This document shows positions 1 to 7,750 of a stretch of 45,976 nucleotides of DNA, in pieces; the stretch's first letter is position 1; each line of letters opens with the position of its first letter. The notes under the pieces were generated by a model that was not told the DNA's origin, did not search any database, and saw nothing but the letters and a program-made list of their open reading frames with translations. Both the position numbers and the translations under genes were made by a program. The stretch comes from Candidatus Rokuibacteriota bacterium (GTDB taxonomy: Bacteria; Methylomirabilota; Methylomirabilia; Rokubacteriales; CSP1-6), in assembly GCA_003220225.1 (NCBI GenBank), contig QHRU01000065.1, positions 1-45,976 on the forward strand, written 5' to 3'.

Positions 1-351
1 TGATCTGAAGGACCGCCCCGCCGGCCGGCTCTATGGCAGCAGCGCCATGGTGTCGGCGCCATACCCCTTGCAGCTGCACCCGACTTTCTCGGTGCCGCGG
101 CTGTCCCTGTTCCTCGCGGACCGTCGTTGTTCTTGCGCGCCGCCGACGGCGGTTTCACTCGCTCGCACCGCCACTTGCTCAGCTTGCCGAAGGCTCCGCG
201 GTTCGCTCGAGTTGATCACAGCCGCGACCGCCAGAAGAACGCTCCCAGGCGGGCACGCGCTTTGCTGAGGACATGGAAGTTCCAGAAGGGATCTTCTGGA
301 CAAACCTTAGGTTTCTGGCTCACGGCCTTTGCGACCGGAAGGAGAACGGCA
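1..351. other. gene-free stretch at window start
   Basis: No convincing gene is seen. Open frames on both strands here are short, arginine/serine-rich in translation and lack ribosome binding sites, as expected of chance frames in high-GC DNA. The only structure is the inverted repeat at 281-300. Confidence 0.5.
281..300. repeat. inverted repeat upstream of secreted-protein gene
   Basis: Perfect 8-bp arms (TCCAGAAG at 281-288, CTTCTGGA at 293-300) around a 4-base loop, about 50 bp before the start codon of the next gene. It could be an operator or an upstream terminator without a T tract; the sequence does not decide. Confidence 0.5.
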
Positions 352-996
352 ATGCGAAGAATCTATCTTCCGCTGTTCCTGTTTTGGCTGCTGCTGGTTC
401 AACAGGCGGTGGCAAAACCCTCCGAGCACCTCAATTTTGGGACGCAACTGAACGCCGCCGAGTGCAACACGACCGGAGCCAGGCTGGTGATCAACGTCAT
501 CCAGCACATCATCGGTGACGCCGATTCTGGGGAGTTTGGCAACTACTGGGCCTACGATGAGGTCCACCGTAGAATCCAGGTCTGGCAGTTGAGCGAGAAC
601 CCGGACACGTTCTGTGCCGTTCTCAAGTACATGGGATCCTTCGTGACGGTTCCGGGTGAGAGCCCCGGTTTTTTCGATCCGGATACCAACGATACTGTTG
701 CGGCTGGGGTGACCGGGACGTTCGAAGGGGGCTACCGGAGTACGGTGTTTACTGGGACGCTCAAAGACCCCCCCGACTACCGAACCAGTGGCAACATCGG
801 AACGTTTAACTACATGTGCGTCATCTTGCCTGGCGTTGTGGGTGGGGCTGCTTGCCCTGGTTACCGGGACTGGACGACCTTTTACTTCTCGAGCACATTG
901 GGTTTCGACCTCGCGTGGTGGGGTTGGGTCTACCACGCCGGCGATAACGGTTCATGGGTCAACTCGATCGATGGGAATTCGGGCGACATCAACTAG
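352..996 (+). CDS. secreted protein of unknown function, 214 aa
   Basis: The start is the ATG at 352 after a good GGAAGGAG site; the frame is open further upstream but without coding character. Residues 1-21 form a signal peptide: MRR, a hydrophobic stretch rich in Leu and Phe, then an AVA cleavage-type end. The mature part is rich in Gly, Thr, aromatic residues and Asn, includes the motif TGTFEGGYRSTVFTGT near the middle, and ends with a WGWVYHAGDNGSWVN block and NSGDIN. Five cysteines outside the signal suggest disulfides outside the cytoplasm. I recognise no enzyme family; similar beta-rich secreted hypotheticals occur in uncultured bacteria. Base composition is less GC-rich than its neighbours, which could indicate transfer. 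It stands alone and converges on the next gene across a strong hairpin. Confidence 0.75.
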   Translation: MRRIYLPLFLFWLLLVQQAVAKPSEHLNFGTQLNAAECNTTGARLVINVIQHIIGDADSGEFGNYWAYDEVHRRIQVWQLSENPDTFCAVLKYMGSFVTVPGESPGFFDPDTNDTVAAGVTGTFEGGYRSTVFTGTLKDPPDYRTSGNIGTFNYMCVILPGVVGGAACPGYRDWTTFYFSSTLGFDLAWWGWVYHAGDNGSWVNSIDGNSGDIN

Positions 997-1005
997 CGTC
1001 TAGTC

Positions 1006-2004
1006 TCACGCTGGACGGCCAAGAGCGCACCCGCGGGTGCGCTCTTTCCTGAAAGCTGAGGGCTGACGCGCATCCCCCAGGAGCGGGTACTCGGCCGCGT
1101 AGTTCTTGTTGAGGTCGCGCTCGTCATTGGTGGCGTGGATGAGCGTCTTGCCGGCCGGGATACTGGCCGCCATCCCGTGGCGGGTGAAGCTACATCCGAT
1201 GCCGAAGACCACGTCGGCCTCGCGGAGATACTGCAAGGTGTGTCCGGTCACGGCCGGGCCACCGGTGCCGAGCGCGAGCGGGTGATCCTCGGGGAACGCG
1301 CTCTTGGCTTCCATCGTGGTCATGACCGGAGCCTGGAGCAGGTCGGCCAGCTCGAGCAGATCATCCGACGCCTCGGCGTACAGCACACCCTGACCGGCGT
1401 GAATCACCGGCCGCCGCGCGTCGCGAAGCACCCGGGCGGCCGTCTCGACGTCGCGGACATTGGCGCCAGCCGACGTCACCTTGACCGGGCGGTACGCATC
1501 GATCAACGTCTCGGGCACGTCCTCGTTCAGGATGTCGGCGGGGATCTCGACCATCGCCGGGCCCGGGCGGCCCATGCGCATCAGGCTGATGGCCCGGCGC
1601 ATGACGTCCACGACCTGGCTGCCCACGGTGATGGTCTCGACGGACTTGGTCACCGACGCGTACGTGCGCGCCGAGCTGAACAAGGGGAAGACCTGGGCAC
1701 GGTCGCGCGGGTGGCCGAGCGGCAGGAGCAGCATCGGCGTGGAATCGGAGTATGCGGTGGCCACGCCGGGGAAGGCGTTCTCGGCCCCGGGGCCGTACTG
1801 CATGCAGAAGACCGCGAGCGTCTTGCCGTTCTTCACGCGCGCATAGCCGTCGGCGATGCCGACGCCCACGCGTTCCTGGCGGCAGAGCACGGGCCGGATG
1901 TCAGCCTTGGCCGCGGCCTCGATCACCGCGGTCGTCGGATAGGCGCTCAGGAATTCCGTGCCCTCGATCTTGAGAATGCGGGCGATGGCATCGACGACTT
2001 TCAC
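1006..2004 (-). CDS. 3'-truncated thiamine-diphosphate enzyme (acetolactate-synthase-like)
   Basis: The start is a GTG at 2004 after GAGGAG, 14 bp behind the upstream gene's stop, so the two probably form an operon. The 332 residues hold the N-terminal pyrimidine-binding domain (about 1-170), with the catalytic-type Glu44 in RQERVG, and the central domain (about 190-320). The family is normally about 550 residues with a C-terminal diphosphate-binding domain carrying the Gly-Asp...Asn-Asn motif; that domain is missing. Homology stops at LLGDA near 1070 and the last 19 or so residues are read through the terminator region. It probably cannot bind TPP alone and is likely a pseudogene, unless a partner supplies the missing domain. 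Confidence 0.75.
   Translation of the reverse strand: MKVVDAIARILKIEGTEFLSAYPTTAVIEAAAKADIRPVLCRQERVGVGIADGYARVKNGKTLAVFCMQYGPGAENAFPGVATAYSDSTPMLLLPLGHPRDRAQVFPLFSSARTYASVTKSVETITVGSQVVDVMRRAISLMRMGRPGPAMVEIPADILNEDVPETLIDAYRPVKVTSAGANVRDVETAARVLRDARRPVIHAGQGVLYAEASDDLLELADLLQAPVMTTMEAKSAFPEDHPLALGTGGPAVTGHTLQYLREADVVFGIGCSFTRHGMAASIPAGKTLIHATNDERDLNKNYAAEYPLLGDARQPSAFRKERTRGCALGRPA
1021..1046. terminator. bidirectional intrinsic terminator
   Basis: A perfect 26-bp palindrome (left arm AAGAGCGCACCCG) with A and T runs at its ends, between two convergent genes. It lies inside the 3' end of the minus-strand frame, consistent with that frame having lost its original stop. Confidence 0.8.
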
Positions 2005-2018
2005 GGTTGCGCGCTCCT

Positions 2019-2456
2019 CTAGCGTTTGGGCTCTGCGATGAACACCGGGATCCGTCGCGTGGTCTTCGCCTGGTATTCCTCGTACGGCGGATACGCCGCG
2101 ACGGCGAGCTTCCATAGCCGCGCCCGCTCGGCCTCGTCCTTGACCTCGCGGACCCGCATCGTCTGGACGGTGGTGTGGTCGCGAAGCTCCACGGCGGGGT
2201 TGGCGCGCAGGTTGTAGACCCAGACCGGGTGCTTCGGCGCTCCTCCCAGCGAGCCGACGAGGACGTAGCTGGTGCCGTCCTTGACGCGCATCAGCGGCGT
2301 CTTGCGAATCGCGCCCGTCTTGTTGCCGGTGTGGGTCACGATGATCACCGGCAGCCCGGTGTCGCGGAGCGTGGTGCCTTCCTTCCCGCCACTGCCCTCG
2401 TAGAGCTCGACCTGCTCGCGCACCCACTGCCTGGGGCTTGGGATGTAGTTCGCCAC
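2019..2456 (-). CDS. deazaflavin (F420)-dependent nitroreductase/quinone reductase family protein
   Basis: A 145-residue protein starting at a GTG (2456) six bases after GGAGAGGAG. It has the compact split-barrel layout of the Ddn/FGD-associated family (PF04075): TGLPVIIVTHTGNKTGAIRKTPLMRV near residues 33-58, then YVLVGSLGG, HPVWVYNL and a NPAVELRD segment. Members use F420H2 to reduce quinones, nitro compounds or other electrophiles. The length is typical for a complete member. It is first in a two-gene minus-strand unit with the truncated TPP enzyme. The substrate cannot be inferred. Confidence 0.85.
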   Translation of the reverse strand: MANYIPSPRQWVREQVELYEGSGGKEGTTLRDTGLPVIIVTHTGNKTGAIRKTPLMRVKDGTSYVLVGSLGGAPKHPVWVYNLRANPAVELRDHTTVQTMRVREVKDEAERARLWKLAVAAYPPYEEYQAKTTRRIPVFIAEPKR

Positions 2457-2659
2457 GATGATCTCCTCTCCGATTTCTTTGTCGCCCGACTCGTGATACA
2501 CCGCCCGCGAAACCTCCGCAAGGCTGTGGCGTATGGGCGCGCCGCGGCTGTCGTGGGACCGCCACCCCGGTCCGCGCCGGCGCTCAGCGGTGTGACCTTT
2601 CGGTGACATCACCGTCGTGCATTCTTGCGTTGCGCCGGTCCGGCGCGCTATCGTCCTCC

Positions 2660-2930
2660 ATGCTCGCCGTTCATGAGACGCCGACGGCCTACCCCAAGCC
2701 CCGCTTGCTCGACCGTGTCCGTGACGCCATCCGCGCTCGCCACTACAGCCGCCGCACCGAGGACGCATACGTCGGCTGGATCAGGCGATACATCTTCTTT
2801 CACGGCAAGCGGCACCCGGCCGAGATGGGCGCGCCGGAGGTCGCACGGTTCCTGTCGTCGCTCGCCGTGGACGGTCACGTCGCCGCGTCCACCCAAAACC
2901 AGGCGCTGAGCGCACTGCTCTTCCTGTACC
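2660..2930 (+). pseudogene. integron-type tyrosine integrase, N-terminal fragment
   Basis: From the ATG at 2660 the frame reads an integron-integrase N-terminal core-binding domain: PRLLDRVRDAIRARHYS, then a WIRRYIFFHGKRHP block and STQNQALSALLFLY. These are hallmark IntI segments. Homology on this strand stops at the palindromic GTAC at 2926-2929, and the continuation is found on the opposite strand. The catalytic domain (Arg-His-Arg-Tyr) is absent, so this is not a functional recombinase. Confidence 0.85.
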
Positions 2931-3118
2931 CGCAGCCTGCAGCACTCGAGTACGCGAAGACCCGCGCCGTAGAGCAGGCACGCCATGAGCCGCGCCGGCC
3001 CATCGAGCCGCCCGAGCGCCGCGCGCACCTCGTCACGCGTGAGGACGACTGGCAGCCGCTCGGGCCGCCGGGCGCGCACGACCTCGTCCAGCCACGGCAG
3101 CTCCACGCCCAGCAAAGG
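2930..3118 (-). pseudogene. inverted middle segment of the same integron integrase
   Basis: Read on the minus strand, this stretch encodes LLGVELPWLDEVVRARRPER, a PVVLTRDEVRAALGRLDG block and LLYGAGLRVLECCRLRV. This is exactly the IntI part expected to follow the N-terminal fragment at 2660-2930, including the loop with the first catalytic Arg. It lies in the same place but flipped. The remaining catalytic domain is not present on either side. Confidence 0.85.
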
Positions 3119-3125
3119 GATCGCC

Positions 3126-3230
3126 ACGGTCCGCATCGCCAGCGGCGAGCTGCGGCGTGCCGAGATCCACTGGTATGAGGCATATGGAATCGGACGCGTT
3201 CGCCACAAGATCAAGAGGTTTCTAGACTGA
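3126..3230 (+). pseudogene. small conserved protein, 5' end lost at the integrase junction
   Basis: The frame reads VRIASGELRRAEIHWYEAYG and IGRVRHKIKRFLD before the TGA at 3228. This resembles a small protein family that I recall as often encoded just before a partner like the next gene. The stop lies 3 bp before the next ATG, so the two were translationally linked. No ATG, GTG or TTG start with a binding site is left; the 5' end falls at the rearrangement near 3120. Function unknown. Confidence 0.5.
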
Positions 3231-3233
3231 GCC

Positions 3234-3533
3234 ATGACGACCCGGGAGAAGGGATACGCTCTCTGCGTTGAGAATCGCGGCGCCGAAGATCTTGAGATCC
3301 GCAAGGTCTACCGCGTGCTGCACGACAAGGGCGCGGCGGCTACCGGCTACGTGCGAGTCATCGACGAATCCGGTGAAGACTATCTCTACCCGGCTGCCTA
3401 TTTCGTCTCCGTCGAGTTGCCGCAGAAGGCGAAGCGTGCCTGGACGGCGAATCGAGGCCTCGCCAAGCGGCGGCGGTCGTCGAACGAGCCGCTTCAGCGG
3501 ACCGGAGCTCGCGTTACTCGCTCCGGCCGCTAA
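3234..3533 (+). CDS. small conserved protein of unknown function, integron cassette gene
   Basis: 99 residues. The N-terminal 65 or so form a conserved unit (ALCVENRGAEDLEIRKVYRV, then a DESGEDYLYPAAYFV block) typical of a small soluble hypothetical family. I recall homologues that end shortly after FV.VELP; here the frame runs into the attC site, and the tail EPLQRTGARVTRSGR is simply translated attC sequence, with the stop at 3531-3533 inside it. The Shine-Dalgarno is weak, consistent with coupling to the upstream remnant. Function unknown. Confidence 0.7.
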   Translation: MTTREKGYALCVENRGAEDLEIRKVYRVLHDKGAAATGYVRVIDESGEDYLYPAAYFVSVELPQKAKRAWTANRGLAKRRRSSNEPLQRTGARVTRSGR

Positions 3534-3548
3534 GCGGCGTCGTTATCC
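3479..3548 (+). repeat. attC-like recombination site 1
   Basis: Imperfect inverted repeat with R'' GTCGAAC (3479-3485) and R' GTTATCC (3542-3548). The left arm GCCGCTTCAGCGGACCGGAG pairs with the right-arm complement GCCGCTTAGCGGCCGGAG except for two extra bases, C and A, that stay unpaired on one strand. Such extrahelical bases are a hallmark of attC hairpins. The stop codon of the preceding gene lies inside, as is usual for cassettes. Confidence 0.8.
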
Positions 3549-3558
3549 GGACGCAGGA

Positions 3559-3954
3559 ATGACGAACGCCCTCGGTAGGAGAATCCTCGGAACGGCTGTC
3601 GTGGTCTTGTCGGCGGCTATCTGGAGCTATGGCCTCCAATGGTCAGCGCTACTGAACCTCGTCACCGGTCCTCTGAACGGCTTCTTGTCGGCCCGTGCTG
3701 CGGTCCTTCTCCGTGGGATGTCAGGGGCTGGGCGAACCCGACTCCTTGCACTGGGTTTGTATGGCGCCGTGCTCGCAGTGGCCGCCGCTGCTCTGGCCGG
3801 TGGCGTTGTACCCATCGCGGCAAACGGACTTCAACCTTCGTTCTCGACCGTGTTTCTCGGCGTCCATGGAGAAGGACTGCTCGGCCTTCTAGGGCTGCTT
3901 GCGGGAGCGGCCGTGGCCCTTCTCGCCTTCAGAGCGCACCGGGTCGCCGGGTAA
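3559..3954 (+). CDS. small integral membrane protein, integron cassette gene
   Basis: 131 residues starting 10 bp after attC site 1, with AGGA very close to the ATG. Three hydrophobic segments are visible (about 10-30, 60-88 and 104-127), rich in Ala, Leu and Gly, with basic residues between (AGRTRLL). Its stop (3952-3954) lies in the R'' box of attC site 2, so this is a clean single-gene cassette of about 485 bp. No known family is recognised; three-pass small membrane proteins of unknown role are common cassette cargo. Confidence 0.65.
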   Translation: MTNALGRRILGTAVVVLSAAIWSYGLQWSALLNLVTGPLNGFLSARAAVLLRGMSGAGRTRLLALGLYGAVLAVAAAALAGGVVPIAANGLQPSFSTVFLGVHGEGLLGLLGLLAGAAVALLAFRAHRVAG

Positions 3955-4033
3955 CCCGCCGTTGCAGACGGACGGAGGGGTCGGTCGCTGCGCGCCCTCT
4001 CCCCTCCGCCGCTGAACGGCAGTATCGTTCGGC
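3949..4033 (+). repeat. attC-like recombination site 2
   Basis: R'' GGGTAAC (3949-3955) and R' GTTCGGC (4027-4033). The left arm GCCGTTGCAGACGGACGG pairs with the complement of the right arm, GCCGTTCAGCGGCGG, with G, A and A left unpaired, followed by a GGAGGGG/CCCCTCC stem and a variable terminal loop. Same polarity as site 1. Confidence 0.8.
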
Positions 4034-4081
4034 GCCGAGGGGCACGAGTGGCGTGATCGAACCCAACGGAGGAGCGTAAGT

Positions 4082-4867
4082 ATGTTCGGCGCCGCCGAGG
4101 CGTACGAAGGATATATGGCCCGCTGGAGCCGGCGACTGGCGGAGATGTTCCTCGACTTCACCGGGTTCACTGACGGAGACCGGCTGCTCGACGTCGGCTG
4201 TGGTACAGGCGCTCTCGCGATGACGGCCGCGGCCCGCACGAGCCGGTCGGAGATCGTTGGAGTTGATCCCACGGAGACCTACGTCGCGTTTGCGCGTGAG
4301 CACGCATCGGCGCCTCGCCTGCGCTTTGATGTCGGCGACGCCCGGGCGTTGACGTACGCCAACGCAACCTTCGATCGAACGCTGTCTCTCCTCGTCTTGC
4401 AGTTCATCCCCGACATGGACCGGGCCATTCTCGAGATGTGTCGGGTGACCAGGCCCGGCGGCATCGTAGGCGGCTGCGTCTGGGACGCCGAGGCCGCTGG
4501 ACAGGGCCTGGTGCATGTCTTCTGGGACGCTGCCGTCGCGCTCGATCCTTCCGCGGAGGCGAGGCATGTGCGCAACCGCGACACCAGCCGGCGCGGTGCG
4601 CTGTCAGGAAAATTCGGCGCGCACGACCTGGTCGATGTGACGGAGACTATCCTTACCGTTGCGATGGAGTTCACCGGGTTCGACGATTTTTGGCTACCTC
4701 ACTTGGAGCCCGCGGGGCCGACGGGCGCCTACGTTGCGGGACTCTCTACGGAGCGCCGGGCAGCCTTGCAGGCCCGCCTGCGCCGGGCTGTCCTCGGCGA
4801 TCTTCCGGAGGGGCCCTTCACGCTGCACACGCCCGCTCTAGCTGTCCGCGGTCAGGTTCCGCGCTGA
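4082..4867 (+). CDS. class I SAM-dependent methyltransferase, integron cassette gene
   Basis: 261 residues with GGAGGAG eight bases before the ATG. A Rossmann methyltransferase fold of the methyltransferase-11/UbiE type: motif I LLDVGCGTGALA at 35-46, the acidic end of strand 2 at VGVDPTETYVAFA, motif II around DVGDARAL, a post-motif TLSLLVLQFIPD and the RPGGIVGGCVW strand. The C-terminal 100 residues are less conserved and probably form the substrate cap. The acceptor is unknown. It is the sole gene of a cassette of about 945 bp between attC sites 2 and 3 and has no promoter of its own that I can see. Confidence 0.85.
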   Translation: MFGAAEAYEGYMARWSRRLAEMFLDFTGFTDGDRLLDVGCGTGALAMTAAARTSRSEIVGVDPTETYVAFAREHASAPRLRFDVGDARALTYANATFDRTLSLLVLQFIPDMDRAILEMCRVTRPGGIVGGCVWDAEAAGQGLVHVFWDAAVALDPSAEARHVRNRDTSRRGALSGKFGAHDLVDVTETILTVAMEFTGFDDFWLPHLEPAGPTGAYVAGLSTERRAALQARLRRAVLGDLPEGPFTLHTPALAVRGQVPR

Positions 4868-4920
4868 GTTCCATCGGGGGATGGCTTGAGCAGTGCCCAA
4901 AAAGTGCGTGGTGGCCCGGC

Positions 4921-4978
4921 GTCGAACTTCGGCATGCAGCCGGCGGCCTTCGGCCGCGGCTGATACCCGGCGCTAGGC
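4921..4978 (+). repeat. attC-like recombination site 3
   Basis: 58 bp, close to the classic 59-base element. R'' GTCGAAC (4921-4927) and R' GCTAGGC (4972-4978, one change from the GTTAGGC form). The left arm TTCGGCATGCAGCCGGCGG pairs with the right-arm complement with two unpaired G bases. The R' change at the crossover triplet may make it inactive. Confidence 0.8.
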
Positions 4979-4985
4979 GGGCGGC

Positions 4986-5864
4986 ATGACGTTTCGAGAT
5001 ATCCGAGCACGCGCCCTCATCGCACTTGGGATCGGTGCGCTCGTTATGGGCGCTACCGCCTCATGGCAGCTTGGTTCCCAGCTCGTTAGGCCAGTCAACC
5101 GTCCGGTCCCACTGCCCGCCGGTTTCCCGGCTCAGGTGGTCTCGCTTCCGGGGCCGGGGCATGCCATCGCCGGTTGGTGGCTCAATCAAGGCGGCGACTC
5201 TCCGGTCGTTCTTCTTCTCCACTCTATACGCGCTGACCGCTCGTCCATGCTGTCGCGGGCGAAGCTGTTGCTGGGCCACGGCTTCTCTGTCCTCCTGATC
5301 GATCTCCAAGGCCATGGCGAAACCCCGGGCGTTGCGATCACCATGGGGTCGCGCGAGTCCGGCGATGTCCGTGCAGCACTTGGGTGGCTCAAGCGCACGG
5401 TGCCCTCGCGTCGGATCGGGGTCATCGGCTGTTCTCTCGGCGGCGCAGCCGTCCTACTTAGCCCTCAACCATCGGGCTTCGACGCGGTCGTTCTCGAGGC
5501 TGTGTATCCCCGCGTTGCCCGCGCTATCGAGAACAGAATCCGCATCAGGTTGGGACCGCTCGCGCCTGCACTCACGCCGTTGCTGCTCGTCCAGCTCCAA
5601 CCGCGGCTGCACATCTCGCCGCGGGACCTTGAGCCGATTCGTTCGATCGACCGCCTGGGGTCACCGGTTCTCGTGGTCGCAGGGTCGCGCGACCAGCACA
5701 CAACACTCGCGGAGTCCGAAGAGCTTTTCCGTGCGGCAGTCCAACCAAAACGACTGTGGGTAGTCACCGGTGCCCGTCACCAAGACTTCTTATCCTTCGA
5801 CCCGGCAGGCTACGACTCAGAGGTCATCGGATTCCTTCTTGAACACTTGCGGCCGGCCGCCTGA
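4986..5864 (+). CDS. alpha/beta hydrolase with N-terminal membrane anchor, integron cassette gene
   Basis: 292 residues, starting 8 bp after attC site 3. Residues 9-30 form a hydrophobic anchor or uncleaved signal. The hydrolase core begins near 50; the nucleophile elbow is GCSLGG with Ser150, and the acid and base fit Asp236 (GSRDQHT) and His265 (GARHQD), so the triad is complete. The oxyanion region is LLLHSIRADRSS. It resembles the BAAT/serine aminopeptidase-like lipase and esterase group; the substrate is unknown. Its stop (5862-5864) starts the R'' box of attC site 4, defining a cassette of about 940 bp. Confidence 0.85.
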   Translation: MTFRDIRARALIALGIGALVMGATASWQLGSQLVRPVNRPVPLPAGFPAQVVSLPGPGHAIAGWWLNQGGDSPVVLLLHSIRADRSSMLSRAKLLLGHGFSVLLIDLQGHGETPGVAITMGSRESGDVRAALGWLKRTVPSRRIGVIGCSLGGAAVLLSPQPSGFDAVVLEAVYPRVARAIENRIRIRLGPLAPALTPLLLVQLQPRLHISPRDLEPIRSIDRLGSPVLVVAGSRDQHTTLAESEELFRAAVQPKRLWVVTGARHQDFLSFDPAGYDSEVIGFLLEHLRPAA

Positions 5865-5918
5865 CAACAGGATGAACATGACGGCGTGCCGCGCCGCAAG
5901 TTGTCCTGAGCGTTCGGC
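5862..5918 (+). repeat. attC-like recombination site 4
   Basis: 57 bp. R'' TGACAAC (5862-5868) and R' GTTCGGC (5912-5918, identical to site 2). The left arm AGGATGAACATGACGGCG pairs with the complement of the right arm, AGGACAACTTGCGGCG, with extra unpaired bases. Less symmetrical than the other three sites but with correct boxes, spacing and polarity. Confidence 0.7.
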
Positions 5919-5957
5919 GGCATCCTCGGTTGTCGCGATTCGGAGGGCTGGAGACTG

Positions 5958-6317
5958 ATGAGCGTGCGCATCGGTTGCATTGTCATGCATTGCAGCGAGT
6001 TTGAACGCACGGTGGCGTTTTGGCAGGACGCCCTCCACTATGTTCCTAGAGAACCCGCGCGTAACGGCTGGGTGGTGCTTCAGGACCCGGAGGGCAAGGG
6101 TCCGAACCTGTCGTTTCAAGCACGGGACACCCGCCGGGAACGACGAAGCTGGTTGCACGTGGACCTCTACGCGGACGACAAAGATGGCGAAGTGGAGCGC
6201 TTGGTGAAGCTCGGCGCTCGCCGATACCTGTGGCGATATCGCCCCCGCAGCGATTTCGTCGTCCTGGAGGACCCTGGGGGCACGCTCTTCTGTGTGGTTC
6301 AGGTTTCGCCGCGTTAG
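5958..6317 (+). CDS. VOC-superfamily protein (glyoxalase/bleomycin-resistance-like)
   Basis: 119 residues with GGAG six bases before the ATG. It has the two beta-alpha-beta-beta-beta modules of the vicinal oxygen chelate fold: module 1 from IGCIVMHCSEFERTVAFW to the QDPEGKGPNLSFQ strand, module 2 from WLHVDLYADD to VVLEDPGGTLFCVVQ. Potential metal ligands include His75 and a late acidic residue. It follows attC site 4 at a cassette-like distance, but no attC site is visible after it, so it is the last and possibly truncated cassette. The role could be resistance, isomerisation or dioxygenation; the sequence alone does not decide. Confidence 0.8.
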   Translation: MSVRIGCIVMHCSEFERTVAFWQDALHYVPREPARNGWVVLQDPEGKGPNLSFQARDTRRERRSWLHVDLYADDKDGEVERLVKLGARRYLWRYRPRSDFVVLEDPGGTLFCVVQVSPR

Positions 6318-6408
6318 AGTAGCGCAGGAATGATCGAATGGATGACCGGCTTGCCGGAGGTGAGGCGCCGATCGCCGGGGTCGCAGCGCCGCTCGACGAC
6401 GGGCTCCC

Positions 6409-6560
6409 GGCGAGGACAACCTGCTGGTGTTCTACTTGCCGGACGCGGATGAGTGGAAGCGATCGGTGGCGCGGCTAGAGGATCTGGGCCACAAGCCGGT
6501 CAAGGCGTTCAATCCGTACTGGGACAAGAAGGGCAAGACGTTCGAGGATCCAGATCGAGC
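6409..6560 (+). pseudogene. C-terminal fragment of a second VOC protein
   Basis: The frame reads GEDNLLVFYLPDADEWKRSV, then LEDLGHKPVKAFNPYWD and FEDPD, a typical second half of a glyoxalase-family protein. Homology ends abruptly at FEDPD (about 6560), where the antisense amidohydrolase gene begins. Upstream in frame there is a stop at 6361 and no recognisable first module. A remnant, not a gene. Confidence 0.7.
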
Positions 6561-7750
6561 CGGTAGGCTCGCGCGACGTTCTCGCCCAGAATTCCGCGGC
6601 GCCCGGACTCCGTCATCGGCGCGACCATCCCGCGCAGCTCTTCCAGATACGCGCCGGGATGATCGGGATGCGGGTAGTCGCTCGCCCAGAAGAACTTGTC
6701 CTCGCCGACGTGCGGCATCAGCGCGGCGATCGTGCGCTCGTCCGGGTCCGCCGAGATGAAGCACTGCCGCTTGAAGTAGTACGACGGCTTCTCCTTCAGC
6801 CGCACGGTCGCGCCGAGCGGCGTCCCGGTGAAGGTCGCGTCGGCGCGGTCGAGGAAGTAACCGATCCAGCCGGCCTGGGACTCGAGGACGACCACGCGCA
6901 GGCGCGGGAAGCGCTCGAAGACGCCGAACTGGAAGAAGGTGGCGAACGCCTGCTGCACGCCCTGGCCGGCGAAGAGATTGAAGTACCAGACCGCCCAGCC
7001 GAACTTGTCGAAGCGATGGTGGACGTTGAACGCGATCGGTTCGAACGTCGGATGCACGGCCAGCGGAACGTCGAGGTCCTGCGCCGCCGCGAAGACCGCG
7101 TCGTGGCGCGGATCGCCGTGGGGCACGCGCGTGATGGTGAACGGACAGACGAAGGCGCCGCGGCAGCCGTCCTTCACCGCGCGCTCGAGCTCGCGCGCGG
7201 CCTCTGCTGGATTGCCGAGCGAGAGATGCGCGATGGGGATCAGCCGGCCGCCGGAGTCGCGGCAGAAGTCGGCGATCCAGCGGTTGTAGGCGCGGCAATA
7301 CGCGCTCGAGAGCTCGGGGTCGAACAGCTCGGCCTCCCAGAGCAGGCCGAGCGTGGGATAGAGCACGGCTTTCGCCATCCCCTCGCGGTCGAGGAGCTGC
7401 ACGCGCTCCTTCATGTCCATGGTGCCGAACGCAGCGCCCCCGAGGTACGTCTGCTCCGGCGTGGGACGGATGCCGCGAACCTCCGCAGGCGGAACGTCCC
7501 CGCGCATCGCGCGCTCGCGGAGCTCGCGCGCCTCGTCGACCCGCTTGCCCATGCCGCCGAGGGTGCTGAGCTGGCCCGGGCGGGCAATCGTGGAGGGCCG
7601 GCCGTCGATCAAGAGATGCTCGAAGCCGTCGTCACCGACGCGTATCCGGAGCGCCCGGTCGCGATAGGCGGGTTCCAGATAGATCTCCCACAGATCCGGC
7701 GGTTCGAGGATGTGGCCGTCGCAGTCGATCACGAGCGCCCCGGTCGTCAT
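6509..7750 (-). CDS. amidohydrolase-2 family protein, 3' end altered
   Basis: 413 residues; ATG at 7750, seven bases after GGAGGAG. A TIM-barrel metal-dependent hydrolase or decarboxylase of PF04909: VIDCDGHILEPPDLW near the N terminus supplies the Asp/His metal ligands, followed by AVLYPTLGLLWE, CRAYNRWIADFC, IPIAHLSL, the HPTFEP strand and the late WASDYPHPDHPG with the catalytic Asp. The family includes o-pyrocatechuate decarboxylase-type enzymes. The natural end should be near RAYRLDL; the last 12 or so residues (DPRTSCPSCPSTD) are read through the antisense VOC fragment, so the original stop was lost. It is divergent from the Ldh/CoA-transferase pair across 36 bp. Confidence 0.85.
   Translation of the reverse strand: MTTGALVIDCDGHILEPPDLWEIYLEPAYRDRALRIRVGDDGFEHLLIDGRPSTIARPGQLSTLGGMGKRVDEARELRERAMRGDVPPAEVRGIRPTPEQTYLGGAAFGTMDMKERVQLLDREGMAKAVLYPTLGLLWEAELFDPELSSAYCRAYNRWIADFCRDSGGRLIPIAHLSLGNPAEAARELERAVKDGCRGAFVCPFTITRVPHGDPRHDAVFAAAQDLDVPLAVHPTFEPIAFNVHHRFDKFGWAVWYFNLFAGQGVQQAFATFFQFGVFERFPRLRVVVLESQAGWIGYFLDRADATFTGTPLGATVRLKEKPSYYFKRQCFISADPDERTIAALMPHVGEDKFFWASDYPHPDHPGAYLEELRGMVAPMTESGRRGILGENVARAYRLDLDPRTSCPSCPSTD

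Follow-up and report, generated by a model that had tools for sequence, protein, structure and literature searches.

A chromosomal integron fragment, very probably relocated, in a Candidatus Rokuibacteriota genome

A 4,087-bp segment in the genome of a Candidatus Rokuibacteriota bacterium is, with a probability of roughly 0.9, a chromosomal integron fragment that reached its present position by being moved or copied there and is unable to rearrange itself. In integrons, the integrase IntI captures gene cassettes at the site attI, and each cassette ends in an attC site, whose bottom-strand hairpin with unpaired bases directs IntI. The segment lies near one end of the stretch analyzed here (the window; 45,976 nucleotides, contig QHRU01000065.1 of assembly GCA_003220225.1, our C122), part of a 6.03-Mb draft genome in 167 contigs whose rpoB shares 90% identity with the rpoB of Candidatus Rokuibacteriota AR31. 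An earlier interpretation of the window from its letters alone (the sequence-only reading) had proposed a sedentary relic integron array with four attC-like sites and an integrase relic just upstream, in a lineage that would be new ground for such elements. The features concerned are given below in window coordinates; R1 is the covariance model described further on, z refers to bottom-strand DNA folding, and designations such as G002, C156, and L042 are our own for genomes, contigs, and loci.

2020-2457, minus strand: left flank, small conserved protein of 146 aa, with orthologues directly behind the amidohydrolase gene in G002 and G035
2469-6555, no strand assigned: whole inserted segment (integron fragment), 4,087 bp, from blastn against contig C184 of G002 and contig C197 of G035
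2534-2590, plus strand: remnant of an lhr-type helicase gene (its 3′ end), forming the upstream flank of intI; also present upstream of the intact intI of contig C156
2660-2929, plus strand: intI relic, codons 1-90, N-terminal SAM-like domain (TIGR02249, 101 bits; PF13495)
2930-3118, minus strand: inverted part of the intI relic, about 62 codons starting at codon 92 (TIGR02249, 71.5 bits; blastn; tblastn)
3126-3230, plus strand: first small protein of cassette 1, lacking a visible start codon; homologues in arrays L042, L053, L059, and L167
3234-3533, plus strand: cassette 1, second small protein, 99 aa (open reading frame); homologues beside attC in L042, L059, and contig C32 of the same genome
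3479-3548, plus strand: attC1; R″ GTCGAAC, R′ GTTATCC, expected crossover 3542/3543; R1 47.0 bits, z −5.7
3559-3954, plus strand: cassette 2, small membrane-like protein, 131 aa (reading frame)
3949-4033, plus strand: attC2; R′ GTTCGGC, expected crossover 4027/4028; R1 24.3 bits, E 1.3e-4, z −4.3
4082-4867, plus strand: cassette 3, class I SAM methyltransferase, 261 aa (PF08241, 8e-21)
4921-4978, plus strand: attC3; R′ GCTAGGC; R1 47.1 bits, E 2.6e-11, z −1.4
4986-5864, plus strand: cassette 4, alpha/beta hydrolase, 292 aa (PF12146)
5859-5918, plus strand: attC4; R″ GCCTGAC (5859-5865), R′ GTTCGGC, expected crossover 5912/5913; R1 35.2 bits, E 8.6e-8, z −2.1
5958-6317, plus strand: VOC-type gene after attC4, 119 aa (PF18029, 1.5e-20)
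6427-6555, plus strand: fragment of a second VOC gene (YycE-like C-terminal), cut at the right junction (PF22659, 3.5e-18)
6556-7750, minus strand: right flank, amidohydrolase (PF04909; 93-94% protein identity in G002 and G035)

The limits of the segment were established by comparison with two relatives, one of the same genus (G002) and one of the same family (G035), in which the flanking genes are adjacent, separated by about 25 and about 6 nt, respectively, with no scar between them. Since blastn homology of the flanks to both genomes ends at 6556 and restarts at 2468, the intervening positions 2469-6555 represent an insert, and the locus is not a resident integron site held in common with these relatives, both of which are empty there. 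The stop codon of the amidohydrolase gene is lost exactly at the junction, its open reading frame now extending to 6512. The protein encoded on the left flank is probably nitroreductase-like, a name that is a guess for a sequence with no Pfam match. At the junctions (2469 and 6555), neither a target-site duplication or inverted ends beyond 6 nt nor long homology was found. As the assembly is a draft, a misassembly inside the insert retains some probability. Farther to the left, a TPP-enzyme (acetolactate-synthase-like) gene at 1018-2004 on the minus strand is cut at 1067, where its homology to G035 and G014 ends, and lacks its C-terminal domain; this break is a second rearrangement near the integron insert.

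Upstream of its integrase relic, the segment includes the tail of an lhr-type helicase gene that it shares with contig C156 of the same genome, and this common tail suggests that the segment stems either from the C156 platform or from a parent common to both. An origin in C156 alone is not proven, given that the inverted piece of intI is closer to other integrases. At the other intI loci compared, the match to the window lies inside intI alone and the lhr tail is absent. The proposal that lhr beside intI is a general feature of the lineage was rejected: of the loci compared, C156 alone has the gene upstream, and the window retains its tail.

The integrase relic noted in the sequence-only reading was recovered by TIGR02249 on both strands, with 101 bits over codons 1-100 on the plus strand and 71.5 bits for a middle part on the minus strand. 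When its DNA was compared with the intact gene of C156, the catalytic end of the window intI proved to be missing, and the array thus has no working intI beside it. By eye, no attI was recognized in the window, where its expected place behind intI is deleted. The C156 gene is complete, encoding 333 aa with a TIGR02249 score of 457 bits against a cut-off of 265; its translation, read by eye, contains the R, H-x-x-R, H, and Y of tyrosine recombinases, and two attC sites lie behind it. Searching contig C156 for repeats returned nothing beyond GC-rich noise. A second integron integrase in this genome, 74% identical to C156 IntI, runs off the end of contig C13 (L010, 1-453), and the 20 kb on its other side yielded no attC.

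Codons 1-90 of the relic are closest to C156 IntI (88% identical), and the inverted piece is 80-82% identical to IntI of other genomes and 71% identical to that of C156, a disparity reflecting either a chimera or uneven divergence. In 17 related loci that contain both intI and attC, every attC site (55 of 55) is on the intI strand and 53 of the 55 lie behind the intI 3′ end, which is also the layout of the window, with its relic and the co-oriented array behind it. The resemblance of the inverted piece to other integrases rather than to C156 is also what might be seen if the integrase relic and the cassette array were parts of different integrons joined by rearrangement, and this reading can further draw on the missing attI and intI end, which leave no direct link between the two parts, and on the presence of sister attC sites of the cassettes on several other contigs. 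Against it, strand and order are those of the 17 intact or partial loci of the lineage, only about 10 bp separate the intI piece from the first cassette gene, and the whole constitutes one single insertion into an empty site. We consider such a composite origin rather improbable.

A still less likely explanation is that an ancestral resident integron decayed in place and was lost cleanly by the relatives. The retention of relic and array in the normal layout of the lineage would fit this history, but flanking genes that lie 6-25 nt apart without a scar in two relatives, one of the same genus, do not, nor do an amidohydrolase stop lost exactly at the junction and an lhr tail upstream of intI that belongs to another locus. 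The comparison with relatives that the sequence-only reading had proposed, in which fixed genes without cassette boundaries would have counted against an array, revealed instead two genomes (G002 and G035) that lack the whole segment. What stands of the relic array it described is therefore the attC sites, their polarity, the cassette structure, and the integrase relic; decay in place does not stand, since 2469-6555 is absent from both relatives, and the term sedentary is contradicted by the empty orthologous site in these two genomes and by an lhr tail from a C156-type locus.

Because Rfam models at the gathering threshold gave no match in the window, we built a custom covariance model, R1, from 16 attC sites located on contig C156 and in integrons of related genomes. 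To avoid circularity, these training sites were taken solely from other loci, none from the window; a script searching for an imperfect palindrome bounded by R″ and R′ boxes located them. The resulting alignment (A1) is free of gaps, with 96% of the cells in its arms paired and 11 of the 15 arm pairs changed on both sides, and displacing the partner by 1-3 columns lowers the proportion paired over the complete structure from 90% to 25-40%. Positions 16 and 23 of the 5′ arm are unpaired, as expected of the extra bases of attC. Applied to a class 1 integron on an E. coli plasmid (NC_004998.1) as a positive control, R1 assigned 39.2 bits to the aadA1 attC and 34.7 and 29.4 bits to two others; in 93 kb of related DNA, including empty sites, the best chance match was 14.4 bits.

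A search of the 46-kb window with R1 returned four attC matches, exactly the four sites of the sequence-only reading, all on the plus strand and scoring 24.3-47.1 bits, and the next match reached 12.1 bits (E 0.5). Both the common polarity claimed for the sites and the covariance check set beforehand were thereby borne out at all four. Clustered within 2.44 kb on one strand, these are genuine attC sites and constitute an attC array. Independently of R1, a palindrome scan by script ranked the site at 3479 first and that at 3949 second in the window. The hairpin arms do carry one-sided extra bases, the unpaired bases being on the 5′ arm. R″ and R′ boxes are present as described, with two corrections: alignments with sister sites place the R″ of attC4 at 5859 (GCCTGAC) rather than at 5862 (TGACAAC), and the R′ core of attC3 is mutated, with GCT in place of GTT. 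An attC in G069 likewise has GCCTGAC as its R″, so the attC4 variant need not be damage. The low score of attC2 (24.3 bits) accompanies a 3-nt insertion near R′, and alone this site would be inconspicuous in a whole-genome search. Bottom-strand folding, another of the proposed checks, gave z values of −5.7 and −4.3 for attC1 and attC2; those of attC3 and attC4 (−1.4 and −2.1) are only a weak signal by themselves, and the standing of both rests on R1 and on their sister sites. Within the same genome, attC1 aligns with attC sites of contigs C32 and C158, attC3 is 94% identical over 48 nt to an attC of contig C22, and attC4 is 82% identical to attC sites of C82 and C10; attC3 also matches an attC of G081 at 98% over 43 nt. 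As had been reported, the sites lie at gene ends, three of them containing the stop codon of the preceding gene (3531-3533, 3952-3954, and 5862-5864), and attC3 is placed 53 bp past the stop of the methyltransferase gene.

By the standard rule, in which crossover occurs at G^TT of R′, cassettes 2, 3, and 4 extend over 3543-4027, 4028-4972, and 4973-5912 (485, 945, and 940 bp), and their open reading frames begin 13-54 bp past the expected crossovers. They are thus compact cassettes with attC behind one open reading frame or a small gene group. The small-protein pair of 3126-3533, whose first member is probably truncated at its 5′ end, is a recurrent cassette in arrays L042, L053, L059, and L167, and in L042, L059, and contig C32 an attC lies just behind it. 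The hydrolase gene has DNA identity to G010 (89%), G081 (78%), and G069 (76%), with homology beginning at window positions 4978, 5002, and 4982, respectively, positions that coincide with the end of attC3 or lie shortly past it. The homologous stretch in G069 starts 4 nt after a different attC; no strong attC was found directly before the gene in G010 or G081. Hydrolase and small-protein pair therefore occur independently of their window neighbors. No family was found for the cassette 2 membrane protein, nor a homologue in 119 relatives, and none of the methyltransferase homologues in relatives (42-45%) adjoins an attC. Homologues of the VOC-type protein sit in arrays of G081 and G084; the R1 search of the window found no attC of its own behind this gene (5958-6317). 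Recurrence in some genomes and absence from others represent the patchy pattern expected of cassettes. Ordinary terminators, or GC-rich chance palindromes following unrelated genes, could also be invoked for the four hairpins, given their position at gene ends and a regional GC content of about 65-70%, but this notion is refuted by the cassette boundaries seen between genomes and is also at odds with R1 scores far above control DNA, the R boxes, the additional unpaired bases of the 5′ arm, the similarity in sequence to attC sites from other arrays, and the adjoining integrase relic.

Integrons are common in Rokubacteria and Methylomirabilota, and the array in the window is one of many. IntI above the curated cut-off (full score) was detected in 16 of 60 relatives and at least one R1 match at E 1e-5 in 54 of them, a count that includes unchecked single weak matches. 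In a tree of 92 IntI sequences, those of the source family group together with few strangers, and the closest named IntI are from Rokubacteria and one Acidobacteria-labelled bin. In the source genome, about 29 strong attC matches are spread over ten contigs, many at contig ends, and its arrays were thus probably broken up by the assembly. One of these contigs, C10 (L164, 5,171 bp), is nearly all cassette array, with eight attC matches on one strand (137-4433). Locus L059 (QHWF01000814.1) is a contig of an Acidobacteria-labelled MAG with an IntI nested among Rokubacterial ones; as two distinct copies of rpoB are present in this MAG, the contig may have been misbinned or recently transferred. 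Integrons in general occur in numerous phyla and also in Archaea (PMC9668308, PMC9024848). The expectation that the lineage would be new ground is therefore only partly sustained: the occurrence of IntI and attC among the relatives speaks against it, but our literature search found no paper describing integrons in Rokubacteria or Methylomirabilota, which is weak evidence of novelty, as the search covered few subscription papers.

The history that we favor for the relocated fragment would begin with an intact-integrase stage in which IntI captured cassettes at attI, by recombination at sites whose hairpins, with their one-sided extra bases, are those observed here. The fragment would have carried along the 3′ end of the lhr helicase gene, as found upstream of the C156 integron, and landed between the amidohydrolase gene and the small conserved gene, its right end falling inside a broken gene. 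Inversion within intI and loss of the catalytic end would then have produced an attC cluster without a working integrase in cis. Judging from their R′ cores, attC1 and attC2, which retain GTT, could be used in trans by the intact C156 IntI, and attC3, with GCT, probably could not. The route of relocation, like this possible service in trans, is one that we infer.

Clusters of attC sites lacking an integron integrase (CALIN) are an IntegronFinder class and a named class of degraded integrons (PMC9024848). The window falls within it, as an attC cluster without a working integrase in cis: at least two close attC sites lie on one strand, with open reading frames between them and no functional intI. 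It differs in that the array still adjoins an integrase pseudogene and that relatives reveal the unoccupied insertion site. The arrangement is also that of Treponema integrons, in which intI and cassettes are co-oriented and the array lies behind the intI 3′ end, and in T. phagedenis attC sites are left and no intI was found (PMC3607928); the window, by comparison, belongs to a different phylum and IntI branch, and its fragment is relocated, with intI inverted inside. The integrons of Rokubacteria and their relatives (C156, L040-L061) have attC sequence types and cassette genes in common with the window, and their IntI is related to its relic (identity of up to 88% over codons 1-90), but intI is long or intact there, whereas the window copy is dead. 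In class 1 mobile integrons, intI has a divergent orientation. The example searched here (aadA1 cassette, NC_004998.1) has an attC architecture matched by R1, as is that of the window; unlike the window, it is plasmid-borne and contains resistance cassettes. The type of element, an orphan attC array with an integrase pseudogene, is well known, and its host lineage is hardly described. The present analysis adds the empty site, the connection with an intact integron, the inversion of part of the integrase gene, and the prevalence of integrons in the lineage.

The window shows the loss of an integron platform, with a known empty site, in an uncultured soil lineage. A broader view, which we put forward as possible rather than probable, is that Rokubacteria and their class carry integrons almost universally, that one or two intact platforms per genome serve many orphan arrays in trans, and that platform fragments with cassettes are repeatedly copied to new chromosomal places. 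If this is true, the window is a relocated outpost whose cassettes are still open to the resident IntI. Lineages like Rokubacteria are a plausible part of the pool that supplies cassettes.
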